Shown here in pieces: positions 24,845 to 45,544 of a stretch of DNA of 54,759 nucleotides. The stretch is from a virus, in the IMG/VR virus record IMGVR_UViG_3300030389_001655, positions 1-54,759 of that record, one strand, 5' to 3'. The position numbers were made by a program, and so were the translations under genes. A model generated the notes under the pieces. That model had not been told where the DNA came from and did no database searches. It saw only the letters and a program-made list of their open reading frames with translations. Each line of letters opens with the position of its first letter. Position 1 is the stretch's first letter.

Positions 24845-25049
24845 GAAGGGCAGATACAGTAAGACCAGCAAAAAATACAACGAACTGATTGCGTTTACCA
24901 AAAAATTAATTCACGAAAAATCAAACCAGCTCGATGAGTCCGAACAATTATTCGAGGACGATCCCAGGGCAGCGAAGGAAAAAGATTATGGTCGAGTCAG
25001 AAGAAAGCCGACTCATGTTTTTTCTAAAAGTACATTAAGTGATATTTAA
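24837..25049 (+). CDS. small basic protein closing the replication operon
   Basis: 70 residues from ATG 24837, which overlaps the primase stop; an earlier in-frame ATG at 24789 lies deep inside the primase gene. Lys/Arg-rich (MSKKGRYSKTSKKY), a central acidic helix (NQLDESEQLFEDDPRAAKE), then DYGRVRRKPTHVFSKSTLSD. Nucleic-acid binding is plausible. A hairpin terminator follows immediately. Confidence 0.55.
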   Translation: MSKKGRYSKTSKKYNELIAFTKKLIHEKSNQLDESEQLFEDDPRAAKEKDYGRVRRKPTHVFSKSTLSDI

Positions 25050-25052
25050 AAA

Positions 25053-25080
25053 AGGGTGGAAAAATCCACCCTCATTTCAT
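25053..25080 (+). terminator. hairpin terminator after the replication operon (weak T-run)
   Basis: AGGGTGGA (25053-25060), loop AAAA, TCCACCCT (25065-25072), then CATTTCAT. The A-run on the left side would make it a better terminator for the minus strand; it may work in both directions. Confidence 0.6.
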
Positions 25081-25180
25081 CTTTACAAGAATAGTTATCA
25101 ACAAATCTTACATAGGTAGTGTTCTGTTAATTTTCTATTCTCCTCTAATATAATTAATTAAAAAAAAATTACAATAGTTG

Positions 25181-25208
25181 TTGACATATATGTAATCAAT
25201 ACTATATT
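25181..25208 (+). promoter_or_regulatory. early promoter P2
   Basis: TTGACA (25181-25186), 16 bp, TATATT (25203-25208), with GTAATCAATAC (25192-25202) abutting the -10 and an A-tract upstream. It serves the small-gene operon starting at 25242. Confidence 0.75.
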
Positions 25209-25241
25209 GAACTATTATTAACTATCTTTTAGGAGGTCAGA

Positions 25242-25418
25242 ATGGGTAGAAAAACAACATTAGAAATAAAAAAGCAGTTTGACGATATGCTTTTTGAAAT
25301 CATAAAGACCAGGACTTTAAATTATTCAGACGAAGTCAATAGTTTGGTGAAAATAATTTCACCACAAATCGAGAAAATTAACCAATTATTGGAGGAGAAG
25401 TTACATGGTAAAAGCTAA
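25242..25418 (+). CDS. small RHH-like protein
   Basis: 58 residues; Shine-Dalgarno AGGAGG ten bases before ATG. Sequence MGRKTTLEIKKQFDDMLFEI, then IKTRTLNYSDEVNSLVKII: strand plus two helices, compatible with a short ribbon-helix-helix or a dimerising helix pair. It follows promoter P2 and overlaps the next gene by 14 bp. DNA binding is inferred. Confidence 0.55.
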   Translation: MGRKTTLEIKKQFDDMLFEIIKTRTLNYSDEVNSLVKIISPQIEKINQLLEEKLHGKS

Positions 25419-25656
25419 TGAAATGTCAATACAAGATTGGGAGGATTTAAATCGTTTCTTGGATCACGAGAACGAGATCTTAGATCGCCCATCAAGTTCT
25501 TTAACATCAGATGCTATTTTAGCTATTGATCACATTTTAAAAGTGATTGAGAAGAGAGATGTTAAGAAGTGTACTCAAGATACTCAAGAGTCTTACGTTG
25601 TGTTAAAAGATTTAAAGCACAAGTTAGAAAATGAGTATGTTATTTATAGACCATAG
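25405..25656 (+). CDS. small early protein, unknown
   Basis: 83 residues, highly charged and helical (MSIQDWEDLNRFLDHENEIL, TSDAILAIDHILKVIEKRDV). Shine-Dalgarno GGAGGAG. The stop codon lies inside a perfect 10-bp hairpin. No recognised family; a host-takeover protein is possible but unsupported. Confidence 0.55.
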   Translation: MVKANEMSIQDWEDLNRFLDHENEILDRPSSSLTSDAILAIDHILKVIEKRDVKKCTQDTQESYVVLKDLKHKLENEYVIYRP

Positions 25657-25695
25657 TCAAATTTATTTGACTATGCAATCAATGCAATGTAATAA
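25652..25695 (+). promoter_or_regulatory. stop-codon hairpin and promoter-like element
   Basis: CATAGTCAAA (25652-25661), loop TTTA, TTTGACTATG (25666-25675): a perfect 10-bp stem over the stop codon. Its right arm contains TTGACT (25667-25672), and 17 bp later lies TAATAA (25690-25695), with GCAATCAATGC (25675-25685) like the early operator. It may be both a 3'-end hairpin and a weak promoter for the next gene. Confidence 0.4.
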
Positions 25696-25723
25696 TATCT
25701 TTAACTATCAAAGGAGCAAGTAG

Positions 25724-25906
25724 ATGAGTAGATACAAAGATAAAATGATGGGAGTAATGCAAGAGTTTTATTCCTATTTAACTGATGATAGCATGACAAA
25801 TGATCAAGCTATCGCTAGAATTAAAGAAGATCATGGCGAGCATTGGGCAGAATATGTTCGTGACGAGATTGAAACTGAGGAGGCACAATATGAGACCATT
25901 GGTTAA
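25724..25906 (+). CDS. small acidic early protein, unknown
   Basis: 60 residues; Shine-Dalgarno AAAGGAGCAAG. An acidic helix (MGVMQEFYSYLTDDSMTNDQ, AIARIKEDHGEHWAEYVRDE). It overlaps the peptidase gene by 17 bp, supplying its GAGGAGG. No family recognised. Confidence 0.55.
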   Translation: MSRYKDKMMGVMQEFYSYLTDDSMTNDQAIARIKEDHGEHWAEYVRDEIETEEAQYETIG

Positions 25907-26306
25907 ACGTATCGATATGGCTTTACATATCCAGCAGTTGTGTGCAGATCATGGCATTACTGTTACCTATCAATCGTTAGATGATGCCGTTCCTCATTAC
26001 TATGCCAGCCCTAGTCAAAGGCACATACATATTAGACCGACTAAGAATACGGGTTATTATGTATCGGCTTTGCATGAGATCGGGCATATTATGGGTGATA
26101 ATCAATCTTATAACAACACAGTAAAGGAGAGAGAAATTGGTGCATGGATTTGGGCAATGCTTAATGCAAAAGTTTGGACAGATACGGCGGATCGTGTCAT
26201 GTCGAGGGCTTTATCGTCTTATGGTGTTAATGAAGAGGAAAGTAGGGAAATCCAACAAAGGTGGAATCCCTGTCACAGGGACGATGAAGAACAAATCGCA
26301 GTTTAA
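25890..26306 (+). CDS. zinc metallopeptidase (HEXXH, ImmA-like)
   Basis: 138 residues from ATG 25890 (GAGGAGG upstream; longer in-frame starts lack one). HEIGH at 62-66 within VSALHEIGHIMGDN, followed by an acidic helix EREIGAWIWAML that could supply the third ligand, as in ImmA/IrrE-type or M78-like peptidases. These typically cleave a repressor or toxin. The stop codon lies within a 13-bp perfect hairpin. The phage's XRE and RHH proteins are possible substrates, which is inference. Confidence 0.75.
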   Translation: MRPLVKRIDMALHIQQLCADHGITVTYQSLDDAVPHYYASPSQRHIHIRPTKNTGYYVSALHEIGHIMGDNQSYNNTVKEREIGAWIWAMLNAKVWTDTADRVMSRALSSYGVNEEESREIQQRWNPCHRDDEEQIAV

Positions 26307-26332
26307 TAAGATTTTTATGAAAAATCTTATTA
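26304..26332 (+). terminator. perfect 13-bp hairpin over a stop codon
   Basis: TAATAAGATTTTT (26304-26316), loop ATG, AAAAATCTTATTA (26320-26332). Very AT-rich, no following T-run. It begins at the peptidase stop codon and probably protects or ends the mRNA 3' end. Confidence 0.5.
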
Positions 26333-26347
26333 GTCATATTAACAATG

Positions 26348-26377
26348 CAACTCCCACAAGGGAGTTGTCTTTGTTTG
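26348..26377 (+). terminator. intrinsic terminator
   Basis: CAACTCCC (26348-26355), loop ACAA, GGGAGTTG (26360-26367), then TCTTTGTTTG. Second of two tandem hairpins after the peptidase gene. Confidence 0.65.
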
Positions 26378-26405
26378 AAAAAATTTATGTAAAGGTAGTA
26401 AAATT

Positions 26406-26636
26406 ATGTCGAAGATGATTGTTTATATATGTGTGGTATGGATCGCAGGAAGTCGTCACGATGGTGGTATAACCAAGTGTATGTGGCATGAAAGCCAGGT
26501 GAAGTATCAGACAGTAGCTGAATGTGAAGATGATATCAAGCACTCAAAAAAGTTGCTTAGACTTAGAATTAGACAAGAGTTTGGAGATCGACCAGAGTCT
26601 ATATCAATTCAGCCTAGTTGTGTCATGGAGTCGTAA
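26406..26636 (+). CDS. small Cys-containing protein with hydrophobic N-terminus
   Basis: 76 residues. MSKMIVYICVVWIAGSRH is a short signal-anchor or export-like segment, followed by KCMWHESQVKYQTVAECEDD and a C-terminal PSCVMES. Four Cys could form disulphides outside the cytoplasm. The layout recalls the gene at 41236. Function unknown. Confidence 0.5.
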   Translation: MSKMIVYICVVWIAGSRHDGGITKCMWHESQVKYQTVAECEDDIKHSKKLLRLRIRQEFGDRPESISIQPSCVMES

Positions 26637-26637
26637 A

Positions 26638-26766
26638 ATGAAGCACAAGGATATGTTATCAAAAACGCACTCCACATCCCGTAAATGGGAGAAGAGCATG
26701 AAGAAGCGGGCTAAAAAATCGCAACGTCAATTGGATCGGAGGGTAGCTAATGAAAGCCAAAAGTAA
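26638..26766 (+). CDS. very small basic protein
   Basis: 42 residues, one base after the preceding stop. Strongly basic (KTHSTSRKWEKSMKKRAKKS, then QRQLDRRVANESQK), so nucleic-acid binding is plausible. Its end carries GGAGGG, which serves the next gene. No homologue recognised. Confidence 0.45.
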   Translation: MKHKDMLSKTHSTSRKWEKSMKKRAKKSQRQLDRRVANESQK

Positions 26767-27112
26767 AAGATGCTGCAACTGTAACCAGAAAATTGTTCGG
26801 GGTATGGCGTTCCCGCTTATGAAAAAAAGCCTGTGCATGGGATGTTTTGTTGAGTTTGGATTAGCCCAGAAGCTGGATATTGATGTGCATCATTACATGA
26901 ATTGTTCGCATGAACATTGTTTTGATTGTGAATATGCGTTTATGAAAGCACTCTGGGCACTGGACTATAAACAGACCGAAATGGGCAACTGGTACAGGTG
27001 CACGCCAGACCCGAAAATTGTTCGTATTTATGACGATTTACTTACCAACTTACCAACTTCCACGGGAAGTAAAAACTTCGGTAAGTTGCAAGGTGTTGAT
27101 TTTGTTGAATAA
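26750..27112 (+). CDS. zinc-binding Cys-rich protein
   Basis: 120 residues. Two Cys groups: CCNCNQK with CMGC, and CSHEHCFDCEY, as in zinc-ribbon or HNH-associated folds, but no nuclease motif is complete. Shine-Dalgarno GGAGGGTAG. Its last 25 codons run into a cluster of AACTTACC repeats, so the C-terminus (LTNLPTSTGSKNFGKLQG) may be shaped by a DNA site. It directly precedes the small terminase. Confidence 0.55.
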   Translation: MKAKSKRCCNCNQKIVRGMAFPLMKKSLCMGCFVEFGLAQKLDIDVHHYMNCSHEHCFDCEYAFMKALWALDYKQTEMGNWYRCTPDPKIVRIYDDLLTNLPTSTGSKNFGKLQGVDFVE

Positions 27113-27245
27113 ATTTAATTTACTTACGAAACTTACCATTTACCTTGGTAAGTTAATTGTGGCTTGTAAGTCATTGATTTTATTGCTACTTACCAACTTA
27201 CCGAACTTCCCCCCCTATAGGGGGTATAGGGGGGTGGTAAGTAAC
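27040..27245. repeat. AACTTACC iteron cluster upstream of the small terminase
   Basis: (A)ACTTACC recurs at 27040-27046, 27047-27054, 27130-27137, 27188-27194 and 27195-27202; its complement GGTAAGT(T) is at 27080-27087, 27147-27154 and 27238-27244. Near-copies (AACTTCC, ACTTACG) lie between. A G/C hairpin, CCCCC-TATA-GGGGG (27211-27224), is embedded. A candidate pac site or replication origin. Confidence 0.65.
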
Positions 27246-27292
27246 CCACCTCCCCCAACCCTATTTAACGTAACAACAAGGAGTGAAAACGT

Positions 27293-27805
27293 ATGCCAAA
27301 AGTAGGCGAAAATTTACCAAAGGAACAAAGAGACAAAGGTCTTAAAAGATTAACGCAACGCCAACAGGATTTTCTCGATAATTTTATACACAAGGATATG
27401 ACGCAGACAAATGCAGCCAGACAAGCTGGATATAGCAATCCTAGCGTAGATGCAGTGAGGTTGCTAAGAAATCCTGTGGTGCAGGAGCGTTGGCAAGAAA
27501 TGCAGGAAGAGAACAGGTCAAGATTTGGTGTAACGCTTGATAAATCTCTTCGGGATCTTTTAAAGATCCGTAATGAGGCTCTGGAGCGGGAAAGGTATAG
27601 CGAAGCTATTCGGGCTGAAGAACTACGCTTAAAGGCTTCTGGACTGCTTGTTAACAAGGCTCATGTGCTACATGAGAAAGTAGATAGCATGACGAAGGAG
27701 GATATTCTGGCTGAACTGGAGAATTTGCAACGAAAAGCACAGGATCGGATGAAAAAAGCTAACGTCACCCATATACGCCCAAAAAAGATAGAGAAAAATA
27801 GCTAA
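27293..27805 (+). CDS. terS: terminase small subunit
   Basis: 170 residues. N-terminal helix-turn-helix LTQRQQDFLDNFIHKDMTQT followed by NAARQAGYSNPSVDAVRLLR and NPVVQERW is the Terminase_2/TerS DNA-recognition domain. Then come a coiled oligomerisation part (LDKSLRDLLKIRNEALERER) and a basic tail. It recognises the packaging site and hands DNA to TerL at 34901, about 7 kb away, an unusually large separation filled by accessory cassettes. Shine-Dalgarno AAGGAG. Confidence 0.82.
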   Translation: MPKVGENLPKEQRDKGLKRLTQRQQDFLDNFIHKDMTQTNAARQAGYSNPSVDAVRLLRNPVVQERWQEMQEENRSRFGVTLDKSLRDLLKIRNEALERERYSEAIRAEELRLKASGLLVNKAHVLHEKVDSMTKEDILAELENLQRKAQDRMKKANVTHIRPKKIEKNS

Positions 27806-28330
27806 GAGTGGGTTGATCGGGCTCTGCACATGGCGTGTCGCCTGACGGAGTTGCCGAACAATTTCCAGTAGCATCGGGATCGGGAGTCTGGATCGGGCTG
27901 TTTTACGCTGCCAATGCGTAGAATTGTTCGCTTTCAGGTGCAGGTAAGCTCCTGGTATCGGGATCGGATCGGACTCCAGCCTCCTGCTGCAGGCTGTATA
28001 CTCACAATTGTTCGTCTTCAGGGTCCTGCCCTGGTCAGGCAGCAGGGGAGGCATCGGAGTCGGGAGGCTGTCCAGGCGTAACCTGCTGCCGAACACGCAC
28101 AATTGTTCGGAGTCAGGTCCAGCAGGGTGTGCTGCCCAGGCGAGATCGGGGTGAATCGAAGCGGGACTCGCTGCGTCCTGCCCTGAACGCTCACAATTGT
28201 TCGGACTGGTAGGTCCAGCAGGTGCTGCACAGCCTCCTTCACCAGGCTACACCTGCTGCTGTCCTGGTGAATACTCACAATTGTTCGCAGTCGTTACGCT
28301 GCAGGTGCTGCCTCCAGGCTGTAAAAAAAA
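27806..28330. repeat. GC-rich array of AATTGTTCG units, no coding gene
   Basis: AATTGTTCG occurs at 27922, 28006, 28101, 28195 and 28279, spaced 84-95 bp, mostly as ACAATTGTTCG. Between copies lie CCAGCAGG/CCTGCTG inverted pairs (for example CAGCAGGTG 28216-28224 and CACCTGCTG 28250-28258) and ATCGGG words. In 28021-28080, 42 of 60 bases are G or C, far above the flanks. Minus-strand open frames here look like artefacts of GC content. Candidate packaging, replication or recombination site. Confidence 0.6.
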
Positions 28331-28353
28331 ATAAAAAAAAATGTTTTTATGTG

Positions 28354-28382
28354 TTGACACTATGTAATCATTACTATATATT
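28354..28382 (+). promoter_or_regulatory. early promoter P3
   Basis: TTGACA (28354-28359), 17 bp, TATATT (28377-28382). GTAATCATTAC (28364-28374) is the perfect palindromic operator. An A-tract lies at 28323-28341. The leader ends CAGCCAAAGGAGA, shared with P5 and P6. Confidence 0.8.
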
Positions 28383-28413
28383 ATATATATAATTCAGCCA
28401 AAGGAGATTTAAA

Positions 28414-28806
28414 ATGAGTTATGAAAAAATAAAAGAAGCAGTTATCAAGCAATTAAAGTGCGATGATGTGCAGCAAACTTTCAAAGATGTTGTTAAAGGT
28501 GGAGCCTCTGGAGGTTTTGGTGGTTTCATTTACCATAACGAAACTGTTAAATTTGCGAAAGACAACATCAAACATATCTACAAATATTTAAAGGAGCAAG
28601 CCAGCGACATGGGCGTTAACGCTTTTGAGATGGTGCAAGGCTTTAATTGTTTGTACGATATCCAGCCCACTTTGTCAGAGGTAGCTGACACGATACATGG
28701 GTATCCTGACCAAGCAACAATAAATGATGGGGTTGATACTCAGATATTAAATGCGTTGGCTTGGTATGCTTTGGAAGAAGTCGCCTTCAACGAGACAGAA
28801 ACCTGA
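28414..28806 (+). CDS. conserved phage protein (DUF7222-like), cassette 1
   Basis: 130 residues. GGASGGFGGFIYHNETVKFA, AFEMVQGFNCLYDIQPTLSE and ILNALAWYALEEVAF form a helical family I associate with phage accessory genes (possibly DUF7222, from memory). It has its own promoter (P3), Shine-Dalgarno (AAAGGAG) and terminator, so it is an independent transcription unit. Function unknown. Confidence 0.6.
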   Translation: MSYEKIKEAVIKQLKCDDVQQTFKDVVKGGASGGFGGFIYHNETVKFAKDNIKHIYKYLKEQASDMGVNAFEMVQGFNCLYDIQPTLSEVADTIHGYPDQATINDGVDTQILNALAWYALEEVAFNETET

Positions 28807-28828
28807 TCGGGCTAAATTGTTCGGGAAG

Positions 28829-28865
28829 AATCGGGAACGGGGTTCACCTGCTCCCGATTTTTTTT
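28829..28865 (+). terminator. intrinsic terminator of cassette 1
   Basis: AATCGGGA (28829-28836) pairs TCCCGATT (28852-28859), followed by eight Ts. AATTGTTCGGG (28815-28825) stands just before it. The gene-free stretch 28807-29205 holds this terminator, two more AATTGTTCG copies (28932, 28990), a predicted minus-strand small RNA and two divergent promoters. Confidence 0.8.
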
Positions 28866-29010
28866 GTGCTGGTTCTGGGTCTAACTTCATCAGGTTAAGG
28901 TCCAGCTACCTGCCTGGGAAGGAATACGCACAATTGTTCGTACTCACGGCTGGACGCAGGTCATGCCTGGAAAGAGCTGTGCCTGCTGAAATTGTTCGGA
29001 GTTGTGCCTG

Positions 29011-29089
29011 GAATAAAAAAAGAGTCGAGAAATATTTGGAAAGGAAAATTCTCGACTCTTCTAAATGTAACGCTCACACATAATGAGCA
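29011..29089 (-). ncRNA. predicted small antisense-type regulatory RNA
   Basis: The minus-strand promoter at 29119-29124/29096-29101 should start a transcript near 29089. Structure: 5' hairpin GCTCA-TTATGTG-TGAGC; a linker; a strong terminator hairpin AAGAGTCGAGAA / TTCTCGACTCTT followed by Ts, ending about 29012. The terminator loop contains TTTTCCTTTCCAAA (complement of 29035-29048), perfectly complementary over 14 nt to 30664-30677, the ribosome-binding site of the amidoligase gene. No open frame of note lies inside. Expression is not proven. Confidence 0.6.
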
Positions 29090-29095
29090 TTTATT

Positions 29096-29124
29096 AATAT
29101 AGTATTGATTACCAGATATGTCAA
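29096..29124 (-). promoter_or_regulatory. early-type promoter P4 on the minus strand
   Basis: Minus strand TTGACA (29119-29124), exactly 17 bp, TATATT (29096-29101), with GTAATCAATAC (29102-29112) abutting the -10. It is the best consensus match of the set, yet it points at no gene, only at the predicted small RNA. Confidence 0.75.
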
Positions 29125-29147
29125 TAGAAAAAAAATAAAAAAAGTTG

Positions 29148-29180
29148 TTGACATTATATATAGTAATGATTACTATGTAT
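29148..29180 (+). promoter_or_regulatory. early promoter P5
   Basis: TTGACA (29148-29153) and the perfect operator GTAATGATTAC (29163-29173) followed by TATGTATATATA. The spacing to TATGTA is 20 bp, longer than in the sister promoters, so strength or exact -10 is uncertain. Divergent from P4 with only 23 bp between the -35 boxes; an A-tract lies in between. Confidence 0.6.
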
Positions 29181-29205
29181 ATATAAACAGCCAAAGGAGA
29201 AAAAA

Positions 29206-29382
29206 ATGAGAAAAACAATTACAGGTTACAATATAATTATACGTTGGAGTGATGGCACTAAGGAAGATCTTGATGCACATGGTCAGATTCCTTACTTCAA
29301 AAATGTAGATCACTACCTTGATACAATAGAGGAAGAAATTAATCAAAACGAAGATGAAATAGAGGAGGCGGTAAATGACTAA
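29206..29382 (+). CDS. small acidic protein, cassette 2
   Basis: 58 residues, ATG 29206 after CCAAAGGAGAAAAAA. MRKTITGYNIIIRWSDGTKE, then a strongly acidic helix (DTIEEEINQNEDEIEEAVND). The GAGGAGG inside its end is the ribosome-binding site of the next gene. The highly acidic C-terminus could mimic DNA, which is speculation. Confidence 0.6.
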   Translation: MRKTITGYNIIIRWSDGTKEDLDAHGQIPYFKNVDHYLDTIEEEINQNEDEIEEAVND

Positions 29383-29464
29383 GTGGGAAGTTGCATTGAC
29401 AATCGTGCAAATGGTTACCTTCTGGGTAATGGTTTGTGCAGTCGTAATAATCGTACCATTTTAA
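29375..29464 (+). CDS. 29-residue membrane protein
   Basis: MTKWEVALTIVQMVTFWVMV followed by CAVVIIVPF: a single transmembrane helix with a short charged N-terminus. It starts eight bases before the stop of the previous gene, with GAGGAGG at good distance, so translation is coupled. A terminator follows. A small membrane effector is possible; function unknown. Confidence 0.55.
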   Translation: MTKWEVALTIVQMVTFWVMVCAVVIIVPF

Positions 29465-29477
29465 GAAGGGAGGAGCT

Positions 29478-29508
29478 GAAGCTGGGTTTGTAGCCCAGCT
29501 TCTTTTTT
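29478..29508 (+). terminator. intrinsic terminator of cassette 2
   Basis: GAAGCTGGG (29478-29486) pairs CCCAGCTTC (29494-29502), then TTTTTT. The full palindrome CGAACAATTGTTCG follows at 29519-29532. Confidence 0.88.
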
Positions 29509-29518
29509 ATCCTGTAAC

Positions 29519-29532
29519 CGAACAATTGTTCG
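29519..29532. repeat. 14-bp palindrome CGAACAATTGTTCG (copy 1)
   Basis: Exact palindrome eleven bases after a terminator T-run. Other full copies are at 30409-30422 and 45531-45544; shorter AATTGTTCG forms are scattered over 24-31 kb. Confidence 0.8.
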
Positions 29533-29553
29533 TATTTAAAGAAGGAGGAATAA

Positions 29554-29787
29554 ATGGCAAAGTGTGAAATATGTGATGATTTTAATGAAGATCATATAGA
29601 CAACGAAGGTGACGACTCATTATATGAGAGCGAACAATATAAGCCTAATTTATATTTTTACTGGCATGGAGACATAGAGGAGGATTATGATATGGGAGAA
29701 TATGAGTGTATATGTGTTAGTTGCTTTAATGGTTTAGATCTGCAGGGAGAAATAAAATGGAAAAAAGTTAAAAAAGATATTGACTAA
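29554..29787 (+). CDS. acidic Cys-containing protein
   Basis: 77 residues; Shine-Dalgarno AAGGAGG. CEIC near the N-terminus and CICVSC near the C-terminus form a plausible zinc site; the middle is strongly acidic (DFNEDHIDNEGDDSLYESEQ). No promoter of the early type directly precedes it, so it may depend on read-through or on the palindrome region. Family unknown. Confidence 0.6.
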   Translation: MAKCEICDDFNEDHIDNEGDDSLYESEQYKPNLYFYWHGDIEEDYDMGEYECICVSCFNGLDLQGEIKWKKVKKDID

Positions 29788-29808
29788 TGTAGTAATCAAT
29801 ACTATATA
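29780..29808 (+). promoter_or_regulatory. early promoter P6
   Basis: TTGACT (29780-29785, overlapping the previous stop codon), 17 bp, TATATA (29803-29808), with GTAATCAATAC (29792-29802). The leader ends CAGCCAAAGGAGA as in P3 and P5. Confidence 0.75.
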
Positions 29809-29844
29809 TATACTATAAATTAATTTCAGCCAAAGGAGAAAAAA

Positions 29845-30348
29845 ATGCAGAAAAAAATTTATTTTGCTTACGGAGCAAACACTAACAAAGATGCGATGGC
29901 GATTAGATGTCCCAAAGCTAAAGTTATAGGTGGCGGTCATATTTACGGCTACAGGTTAAAGTTTAACAATGTAGCAGATATTGTTCCTGTCAAAGGATTC
30001 GACCAATATGCACCTTGTGTTATATGGGAAATCACAGAGTCTTGCGAAAAATCCTTGGATCGATTCGAGAGTTATCCGTCATTGTATGACAAGATTGAGG
30101 TAACTGGTTACGAGGGAACGCAAGGAGAAAGTATAACTGGCTTTGCGTATGTCATGAACTACAAAGGTTTTCATACACCAAGTCCAATTTATGTCAGAGG
30201 CATTAGGAATGGATTGAAGGGAGTATGGGATAAGTTTTATCATGCAGATATTGATAACCATATTGACAAAGCAATTATAGAAAGTTTTCGTGAAAGCGAG
30301 AAGCCAATGGTTCATCATCAAAGAATCGGTGGGAAGCAGTGGGCGTAA
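29845..30348 (+). CDS. gamma-glutamyl-cyclotransferase-fold (AIG2/GGCT-like) protein
   Basis: 167 residues. The glycine loop YFAYGANTN (6-14) matches the YGSNL signature; the catalytic-type Glu is E75 in LDRFESYP. Members release 5-oxoproline from gamma-glutamyl-amines or edit similar amide bonds. It has promoter P6, Shine-Dalgarno AAAGGAG and its own terminator. The next gene is an amidoligase, which would form the kind of bond this fold removes; the pair suggests a small-molecule or peptide modification cycle. Substrate unknown. Confidence 0.8.
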   Translation: MQKKIYFAYGANTNKDAMAIRCPKAKVIGGGHIYGYRLKFNNVADIVPVKGFDQYAPCVIWEITESCEKSLDRFESYPSLYDKIEVTGYEGTQGESITGFAYVMNYKGFHTPSPIYVRGIRNGLKGVWDKFYHADIDNHIDKAIIESFRESEKPMVHHQRIGGKQWA

Positions 30349-30367
30349 AACTTTCCTGAGGCGAAAG

Positions 30368-30396
30368 CCCAGACCTTCACGGGTCTGGGTTTTTTT
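30368..30396 (+). terminator. intrinsic terminator after the cyclotransferase gene
   Basis: CCCAGACC (30368-30375) pairs GGTCTGGG (30382-30389), then seven Ts. The gene-free stretch 30349-30681 holds this terminator, the palindrome at 30409, an ATCGGG cluster (30428-30468), a long A/T-run region (30528-30585) and promoter P7. Confidence 0.9.
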
Positions 30397-30408
30397 CTTG
30401 CTGGAGAG

Positions 30409-30422
30409 CGAACAATTGTTCG
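30409..30422. repeat. 14-bp palindrome CGAACAATTGTTCG (copy 2)
   Basis: Exact copy twelve bases after a terminator T-run; followed by four ATCGGG words within 45 bases. Confidence 0.8.
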
Positions 30423-30614
30423 TACTGGATCGGGCAGGCAGCAGATCGGGCTGATCGGGGATCGGGCTTCGCAGCCATCTGGCTCATGAAGCATCAACCT
30501 TCCAGTGGTTTTATAGGGTTATAAATAAAAAAAAAAATAAAAAAAAATTTTTTTTAAGTTATTGATTTTATTGGATTTTTTTCTTCAGCTCTAAATTGTT
30601 CGCATTTAGGTATT

Positions 30615-30631
30615 GTAATGATTGCTATATA
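30615..30631 (+). promoter_or_regulatory. early promoter P7 (weak -35)
   Basis: Operator-like GTAATGATTGC (30615-30625) directly followed by TATATA (30626-30631). The position for a -35 box reads CATTTA, far from consensus, so the amidoligase promoter looks weaker or activator-dependent. Confidence 0.5.
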
Positions 30632-30681
30632 GTATATATTAAATATTGTATTTAATTTTTAATTTTGGAAAGGAAAAAAAA

Positions 30682-31878
30682 ATGCAAAATAAATTTAAAA
30701 ACATAAACAATCAATCAAGATTTGCCTTTGGATTTGAACCAGAGTTTATGAACTCTCAAAATTCAGATTATGATTTAAATCAATTGAATAGAACTAGTTC
30801 AAATCCTATTGGTGGTTTAACAATCAAGACAGATGGTAGCCAAGCAGATTATGAAATGGATTTGCCAGTGTTAGCAGATTGTCAATTGGCTTGGGATTAT
30901 TTAGAACAAGCTTGTAATTTTGTTAGTTCAAATGGTGGATACGTAAACAAAGCTTGTTCTGCTCATGTTCATTTATCCACGTTACCAATTAGATCAGATC
31001 TTACAAATGAAGAGTTTACTATAAAATCAATTCAAATGAAAAGACATTCAAATAATTATTTATCTGATCCAAATAACTTAGAACAATTGTTTGATGTTAA
31101 CTGTCAATTACCATTAGAACTTTATAAAGACATTGGATATAGAGTATCTAAACATATTGATTTTTATAAAAGTACAATTGCAAGATCTAGGCATGATTGT
31201 TATTATGCCAAGTTCCCTAAATCATGTGATCAAATACTTAGAGCAAATCCAACCATTGAAAGCTTGAAGGATGTTTTAAACTCTATTGCTCCACGTGGAA
31301 TATATAAATATACAGCTCTAAATATTAATCATTACAATGTTAAAAAGACATTTGAAAATAGATCACATGGTGGAACATTAGAGATGAACAAGCTTAAAAC
31401 ATGGTTCAAGTTTTTATCTAATATGTTAGATCATAGCCTACAAACTCGATTTAAGCCTTGTACAGTGGCAGAACAATTAAATAGCCCATCATACATAGGA
31501 AGATCTGCTAACACTGTTAAAAGTCAATTATGGGCTTTTTGTAGAGGTCAAGTAAGATCTACACAAGAGATTATGGCTCATTGTAATATTAACAATGCAC
31601 AATCTGTTAGAAGAACAATTTCAGAGATTAGAGCAAATGAAAATTATAGACCATTTGTAGTTACACATAATCAGCAAGAGTTTAATGTTAATTATGGTCA
31701 ATCAGATAATTACAGTAACAATGGTTATGAAATATTAATTCAATCAAATGTAAACAGAAATACAAATGATCTTGAATTTATTTCAGATGATAATGAACGT
31801 GGTTCAAGTTCATTAATTGCTGGATTGGATAGCCAAACGCTAGCAGATCTAAATGAAAGGATTAGACAATTATCATAA
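30682..31878 (+). CDS. amidoligase (GCS-like COOH-NH2 ligase, Amidoligase_2-like)
   Basis: 398 residues from ATG 30682, preceded by GGAAAGGAAAA; an earlier in-frame ATG at 30646 lies before this ribosome-binding site. Signature FGFEPEF (E19, E21), TIKTDGSQADYEMDLPVLAD, SAHVHLS and, further on, ENRSHGGTLEMNKLKTWFKF: the metal/ATP-binding acids and E-x-R of the glutamine-synthetase-like amidoligase fold. The C-terminus includes an HTH-like segment (STQEIMAHCNINNAQSVRRT). It should join a carboxylate to an amine using ATP. Its ribosome-binding site is the predicted target of the small RNA at 29011-29089. Confidence 0.8.
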   Translation: MQNKFKNINNQSRFAFGFEPEFMNSQNSDYDLNQLNRTSSNPIGGLTIKTDGSQADYEMDLPVLADCQLAWDYLEQACNFVSSNGGYVNKACSAHVHLSTLPIRSDLTNEEFTIKSIQMKRHSNNYLSDPNNLEQLFDVNCQLPLELYKDIGYRVSKHIDFYKSTIARSRHDCYYAKFPKSCDQILRANPTIESLKDVLNSIAPRGIYKYTALNINHYNVKKTFENRSHGGTLEMNKLKTWFKFLSNMLDHSLQTRFKPCTVAEQLNSPSYIGRSANTVKSQLWAFCRGQVRSTQEIMAHCNINNAQSVRRTISEIRANENYRPFVVTHNQQEFNVNYGQSDNYSNNGYEILIQSNVNRNTNDLEFISDDNERGSSSLIAGLDSQTLADLNERIRQLS

Positions 31879-45530: not shown

Positions 45531-45544
45531 CGAACAATTGTTCG
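45531..45544. repeat. 14-bp palindrome CGAACAATTGTTCG (copy 3)
   Basis: Begins one base after the capsid stop and is followed by TTTTTT, so it can itself fold as a short terminator (stem CGAAC/GTTCG, loop AATT). Confidence 0.75.

Follow-up and report, generated by a model that had tools for sequence, protein, structure and literature searches.

Several bacterial small RNAs (sRNAs), namely RNAIII and the Rsa RNAs with their UCCC loops, LhrC, the csRNAs and AbcR, have pyrimidine-rich loops that occlude Shine-Dalgarno (SD) sequences. These sRNAs are host-encoded and usually have many targets, whereas the putative phage sRNA described here is predicted to have one or two phage-encoded targets, reached through an SD sequence that is otherwise unused. 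By analogy, the closest system in mode of action is RepG of Helicobacter pylori, whose C/U-rich terminator loop forms the seed and is sufficient for repression of its target tlpB (PMC8295292). In RepG, and as predicted here, the C/U-rich loop of an intrinsic terminator pairs in trans with a purine-rich mRNA leader. RepG is however chromosomal and has no phage role, and it recognizes a phase-variable G repeat in a 5′ UTR rather than an SD. The likeness drawn here is one of mechanism.

Regulatory RNAs of phages include sar of P22, OOP of lambda, DicF of Qin and VpdS of VP882 (PMC12197685). Of these, sar (68/69 nt) blocks phage protein synthesis, and DicF blocks translation in trans (PMC12197685). 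The RNA described here would resemble them as a phage RNA acting through antisense pairing. It differs from sar and OOP, whose phage mRNA partners come from their own immunity regions, in lying at a separate locus and matching a phage accessory enzyme; DicF in contrast acts on host mRNAs. The kind of mechanism, an anti-SD sRNA with its seed in the terminator loop, is already known, while the family, its target and its modular build are new. In the literature that was searched, no description of a noncoding RNA of this kind from a pelagiphage was found; the matches for phage sRNAs comprised a review and papers on other systems.

The window, meaning the whole stretch of DNA analysed, is a complete IMG/VR virus record of 54,759 bases. 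Its terminase is nearest to those of pelagiphage-type phages, and the source appears to be a marine tailed-phage lineage. The original prediction described a minus-strand promoter with an operator-like motif, followed by a segment of about 75 nt with a 5′ hairpin and a strong terminator hairpin. All of these were found in the sequence, as follows.

29096-29124, minus strand: sRNA promoter TTGACA-N17-TATATT, with operator-like GTAATCAATAC in the spacer; 11 of 12 sigma-70 consensus bases.
29013-29089, minus strand: predicted sRNA of about 75 nt, delimited by the inferred start site and the end of the T tract; based on promoter and terminator positions and on the fold.
29072-29088, minus strand: 5′ hairpin GCTCA-N7-TGAGC, based on the fold; a variable module, swapped or missing in relatives.
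29018-29062, minus strand: intrinsic terminator hairpin, the conserved core of the RNA, based on stem pairing and kept in relatives.
29032-29048, minus strand: terminator loop TTTTCCTTTCCAAATAT, the putative anti-SD seed, with CCTTTCC in 38 of 38 hairpins.

The promoter has the top score over the 2.3 kb scanned, and points at no gene; downstream of it is only the 75-nt segment. This sigma-70-type promoter, carrying the operator-like motif of the phage, would produce a short RNA ending in the intrinsic terminator. The predicted RNA has a folding energy of -29.1 kcal/mol (z = -8.8). Its terminator stem is formed by AGAAGAGTCGAGAA (29062-29049) and TTCTCGACTCTTTT (29031-29018), which enclose a loop of 17 nt and are followed by the T tract, and the loop core CCTTTCC is the complement of 29038-29044. 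As expected for a trans-acting base-pairing sRNA, the locus has its own promoter and intrinsic terminator and no conserved ORF, and as in RepG, the pairing seed sits inside the terminator loop. A search of Rfam 15 with the window gave no match at gathering score, and for six relatives searched at E up to 1 the only matches were at chance level and lay elsewhere than the sRNA.

The original prediction also claimed a 14-nt perfect match between the loop and the ribosome-binding site of an amidoligase gene, about 1.6 kb from the sRNA locus. The relevant features are listed below.

30606-30640, plus strand: amidoligase promoter region with the same operator-like motif GTAATGATTGC as the sRNA promoter; weak promoter match at 30613-30640.
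30664-30677, plus strand: target site, the amidoligase SD TTTGGAAAGGAAAA, to which the loop is perfectly complementary over 14 nt.
30682-31878, plus strand: target gene Amidoligase_2, 398 aa; PF12224, E = 1e-5, exceeding the curated cut-off.

The match is present, and goes beyond chance. The complement of the loop stretch TTTTCCTTTCCAAA stands without a mismatch at 30664-30677, where the SD lies 8 nt ahead of the ATG. In a search of both strands of the whole genome in 24-nt windows, the amidoligase SD gave the best duplex with the loop (-18.4 kcal/mol), apart from the complement of the sRNA gene itself. Across the 93 ATG start regions the next site is weaker by 7 kcal/mol, and no loop in a set of 300 shuffles equalled the amidoligase site at any of these regions. 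GGAAAGG occurs five times on the two strands together, which is about what is expected from shuffles, and just one copy precedes a start codon. The three copies on the plus strand of the 54.8 kb are one within a coding region, the sRNA's own complement, and the amidoligase SD. The operator-like motif of the amidoligase promoter region is kept in relatives.

Other repeats were seen in the window. The 9-mer AATTGTTCG has 35 copies against 0.28 expected, is dense at 24941-30602, and is found in both coding and noncoding DNA (for example at 29519-29532, 30409-30422 and 45531-45544). It sometimes forms a palindrome CGAACAATTGTTCG that resembles a LexA/DinR-type box, and similar CGAACAATTGTNCG sites fill the intergenic DNA of relatives. 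Candidate roles are an operator, a stoperator-like element, or a packaging or recombination motif. A separate region of about 600 nt without a clear gene (27806-28413) carries imperfect repeats around ACAATTGTTCG, spaced by 84-95 nt.

Relatives of the locus (labelled here with L numbers) were collected by way of the adjoining GGACT (gamma-glutamyl cyclotransferase-like) protein, the RNA not being used as a criterion, which gave 45 distinct loci. The hairpin, with a CCTTTCC loop in every case, and the minus-strand promoter are present in 38 of them; this count includes L020, whose variant -10 was missed by the strict pattern and was seen and scored on inspection. The remaining seven (L048-L054), which form a divergent clade, have neither hairpin nor promoter. 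All viral contigs were also scanned by pattern. This listed 48 stretches, and all those examined belong to the phage group of the window or to its sister lineage. TTGACR-N17 followed by a TA-rich -10 stands at the equivalent place in all 48 of the sRNA-bearing contigs that have scorable upstream DNA. Promoter, hairpin and complementarity, the features on whose retention by close relatives the original prediction was staked, are thus all kept, in close and in fairly distant relatives.

Homologues were judged by position and pattern, because the covariance model (R1) was too terminator-generic to separate them from look-alikes. A looser loop pattern gave mostly unrelated chance matches. The same pattern scan over 257 Gb of prokaryote genomes gave two matches, both in unrelated MAGs, which we regard as chance and not as a host-encoded homologue. 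The stretches inspected in the cultured pelagiphages HTVC023P, HTVC027P and 023Pt_psg01 contain no terminator with a CCTTTCC loop; a covariance-model match in HTVC023P was ruled out as a homologue, having a different stem and loop.

In the alignment of relatives, 97.2% of terminator stem cells are paired, compared to 49-64% when slid. Relative to the commonest pair there are one-sided changes and no double-sided ones, and so the stem alone is not proof of covariation. In every sRNA-bearing contig that covers the gene, the amidoligase SD is GGAAAGG, or in L034, L079 and L046 GGAAGGG, which is the only variant of the SD core and keeps the pairing by means of one G-U. The flanks of loop and SD covary: a CCAAA loop is found with TTTGG, CCATT with AATGG, and CCT with AGG. 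Beyond the 7-nt core, mean pairing is 3.90 nt for cognate pairs against 2.74 nt when SDs are permuted, a value reached in none of 5000 permutations, where sequences were treated as independent and their relatedness ignored. Without pairing, it would be hard to account for concerted changes at several flank positions in different clades. The target thus has the separate locus and the conserved, covarying complementarity that mark a trans-acting base-pairing sRNA. Presentation of the SD in an mRNA hairpin, for a kissing interaction, was not adopted: some relatives have suggestive inverted repeats, but most leader folds are no better than shuffles.

The SD is also exclusive. Among 858 plus-strand ATG starts, 45 are preceded by GGAARGG, and all 45 belong to the amidoligase or to genes of an accessory cassette. 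In whole records that bear the sRNA, the hairpin is found once and a GGAAAGG-ATG site once or twice on the target strand (with an extra site on the opposite strand in one record), whereas sRNA-less whole records have no hairpin and no such site on the target strand, a contrast that is essentially one phylogenetic split. In the sRNA-less L048-L052, the amidoligase SD is AAAGGGAAA or AGAGGAAA.

Conservation, covariation of the flanks, and the joint absence of RNA and GGAAAGG SD in the divergent clade all support the suggestion that a phage-encoded trans-acting RNA controls the phage's own amidoligase. The original prediction went further, to a second match of 9 nt at an XRE gene. This match exists, but targeting is not supported: at -11.4 kcal/mol it is typical of shuffled loops, whose best scores average -12.3, and the sequence GAAAGGAAAG is part of the coding end of the upstream gene, does not track the loop, and is kept in the sRNA-less L048 and L051. 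XRE was therefore ruled out as a second target.

We consider it likely that the locus encodes a phage sRNA that acts in trans on the amidoligase mRNA, occluding the SD and so repressing translation, with an operator-like motif common to its promoter and that of its target. The terminator loop, CCUUUCC with lineage-specific flanks, would pair in trans with the GGAAAGG SD of the amidoligase mRNA. Since pairing would mask bases needed by the ribosome, translation would be repressed. The loop has been kept complementary to the amidoligase SD across dozens of relatives, which suggests that the sRNA is very probably a built-in off-switch for amidoligase. Given the operator-like motif common to sRNA and target, a probable role of the RNA is to limit or time the burst of amidoligase that occurs while this family of promoters is active.

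The opposite effect, activation of amidoligase or stabilization of its mRNA, is unlikely, as is the suggestion that the RNA mainly hits host mRNAs having GGAAAGG SDs and that the phage match is secondary. Terminator-loop sRNAs such as RepG can repress or activate according to target geometry (PMC8295292), and GGAAAGG is usable as an SD by host ribosomes, making host targets conceivable. However, the predicted pairing covers the SD itself, which is the usual geometry of repression, and covariation of the loop with the amidoligase SD across lineages is not expected from host targets alone.

Somewhat less likely still is that the hairpin is a mere terminator, possibly bidirectional, that insulates neighbouring units and has a loop with no regulatory role. 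The terminator is genuine, and some relatives (L024-type) have T runs on both strands of the hairpin, which in these may double as a bidirectional terminator. Nevertheless, every scorable contig has kept a dedicated promoter that could transcribe nothing else, and the core of the loop does not vary among the 38 hairpins, although it was not required for finding them. In a scan using the stem only, unrelated viruses with the same stem were found to have arbitrary loops, and therefore the loop is conserved for its own sake; and its match is to the SD of specific genes, with which it covaries.

It is very unlikely that the functional strand is the plus strand, with a GGAAAGG loop serving as an SD decoy or a protein-binding site. 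This loop would repeat the amidoligase SD and has GGA motifs, but the conserved promoter is directed at the minus strand, no T tract adjoins the hairpin on the plus strand of the window, and the score of the covariance model is 68.5 bits for the minus strand of the window against 21.2 bits for the plus strand. That the minus transcript encodes a peptide can be effectively discounted: the window has a 9-codon ORF (MLIMCERYI) after the predicted start site, but no frame is conserved, the region is swapped or deleted in relatives, and the L018 and L042 RNAs, at 45-47 nt, are too short to hold it.

On the preferred reading, repression by SD occlusion, the amidoligase need not be the only target. 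The accessory cassettes of relatives encode several proteins unrelated to one another, all preceded by one conserved promoter-leader that ends in AGGAAAGG, and lie mostly 440-730 nt from the sRNA. Pairing of the loop with the AGGAAAGG SD of these small genes is also predicted, and they appear to be a second target class, which was absent from the original prediction. GGAAAGG precedes no other class of gene in these contigs, suggesting that a cassette gene can join the regulon by means of that leader. The promoter-leader resembles an exchangeable cassette head, and the proteins are of 60-152 aa (L011:1930, L018:6507, L020:6010, L021:1720, L042:1935, L196:1770 and others).

Two records of the sister lineage are probably fragments, and are for this reason only supporting evidence. 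L188, whose terminase is 59% identical to that of the window, shares the terminator, its loop again containing CCTTTCC, and has a single GGAAAGG-ATG site, which precedes a different gene. In L212, a relative of L188, the loop is changed to TTTCATCC, and the record has no GGAAAGG-ATG site. The 5′ hairpin of L188 contains a further anti-SD-like stretch ACCTCCATGTAAAA, a 12-nt complement of the SD region TTTTACATGGAG of another gene (L188:6570).

The RNA is modular. Across 48 scorable contigs its predicted length is between 45 and 283 nt. The 3′ hairpin stays the same, whereas the 5′ part is almost absent in L018 and L042, where the RNA is little beyond the terminator hairpin. In the window, L011 and L016 the 5′ part consists of small hairpins unrelated to one another, and in the long forms (L024-L046, L178) of a GACGG...CCGTC hairpin together with one or two pseudoknot-like modules. 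As the 5′ part varies so freely, the terminator loop is the working part, and the 5′ hairpin is not essential because some relatives do without it. The pseudoknot-like modules, GGTC..GGGGG..GACC..CCCCC and AGTC..GTGGGG..GACT..CCCAC, lie on the minus strand between sRNA promoter and terminator (L024, L026, L027, L031, L037, L078, L172, L175, L178). They have no Rfam match, and in viral contigs were found solely within this family.

Trans-acting sRNAs known from environmental phages are few, and so are those with a target backed by comparative genomics. This one, which at its smallest is little more than a terminator, is a clean and testable case, and points to tight dosage control of the phage amidoligase. 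What marks a gene as a member of the RNA-controlled set appears to be the SD sequence itself. More tentatively, and as a possibility that we do not favour outright, the RNA could be a simple member of a new family of phage regulators of modular build, in which a terminator hairpin of about 45 nt would suffice to control in trans a small regulon of amidoligase and interchangeable cassette genes through one otherwise unused SD, and in which the pseudoknot-like 5′ modules of the longer relatives could respond to a ligand or protein and thereby adjust the switch.
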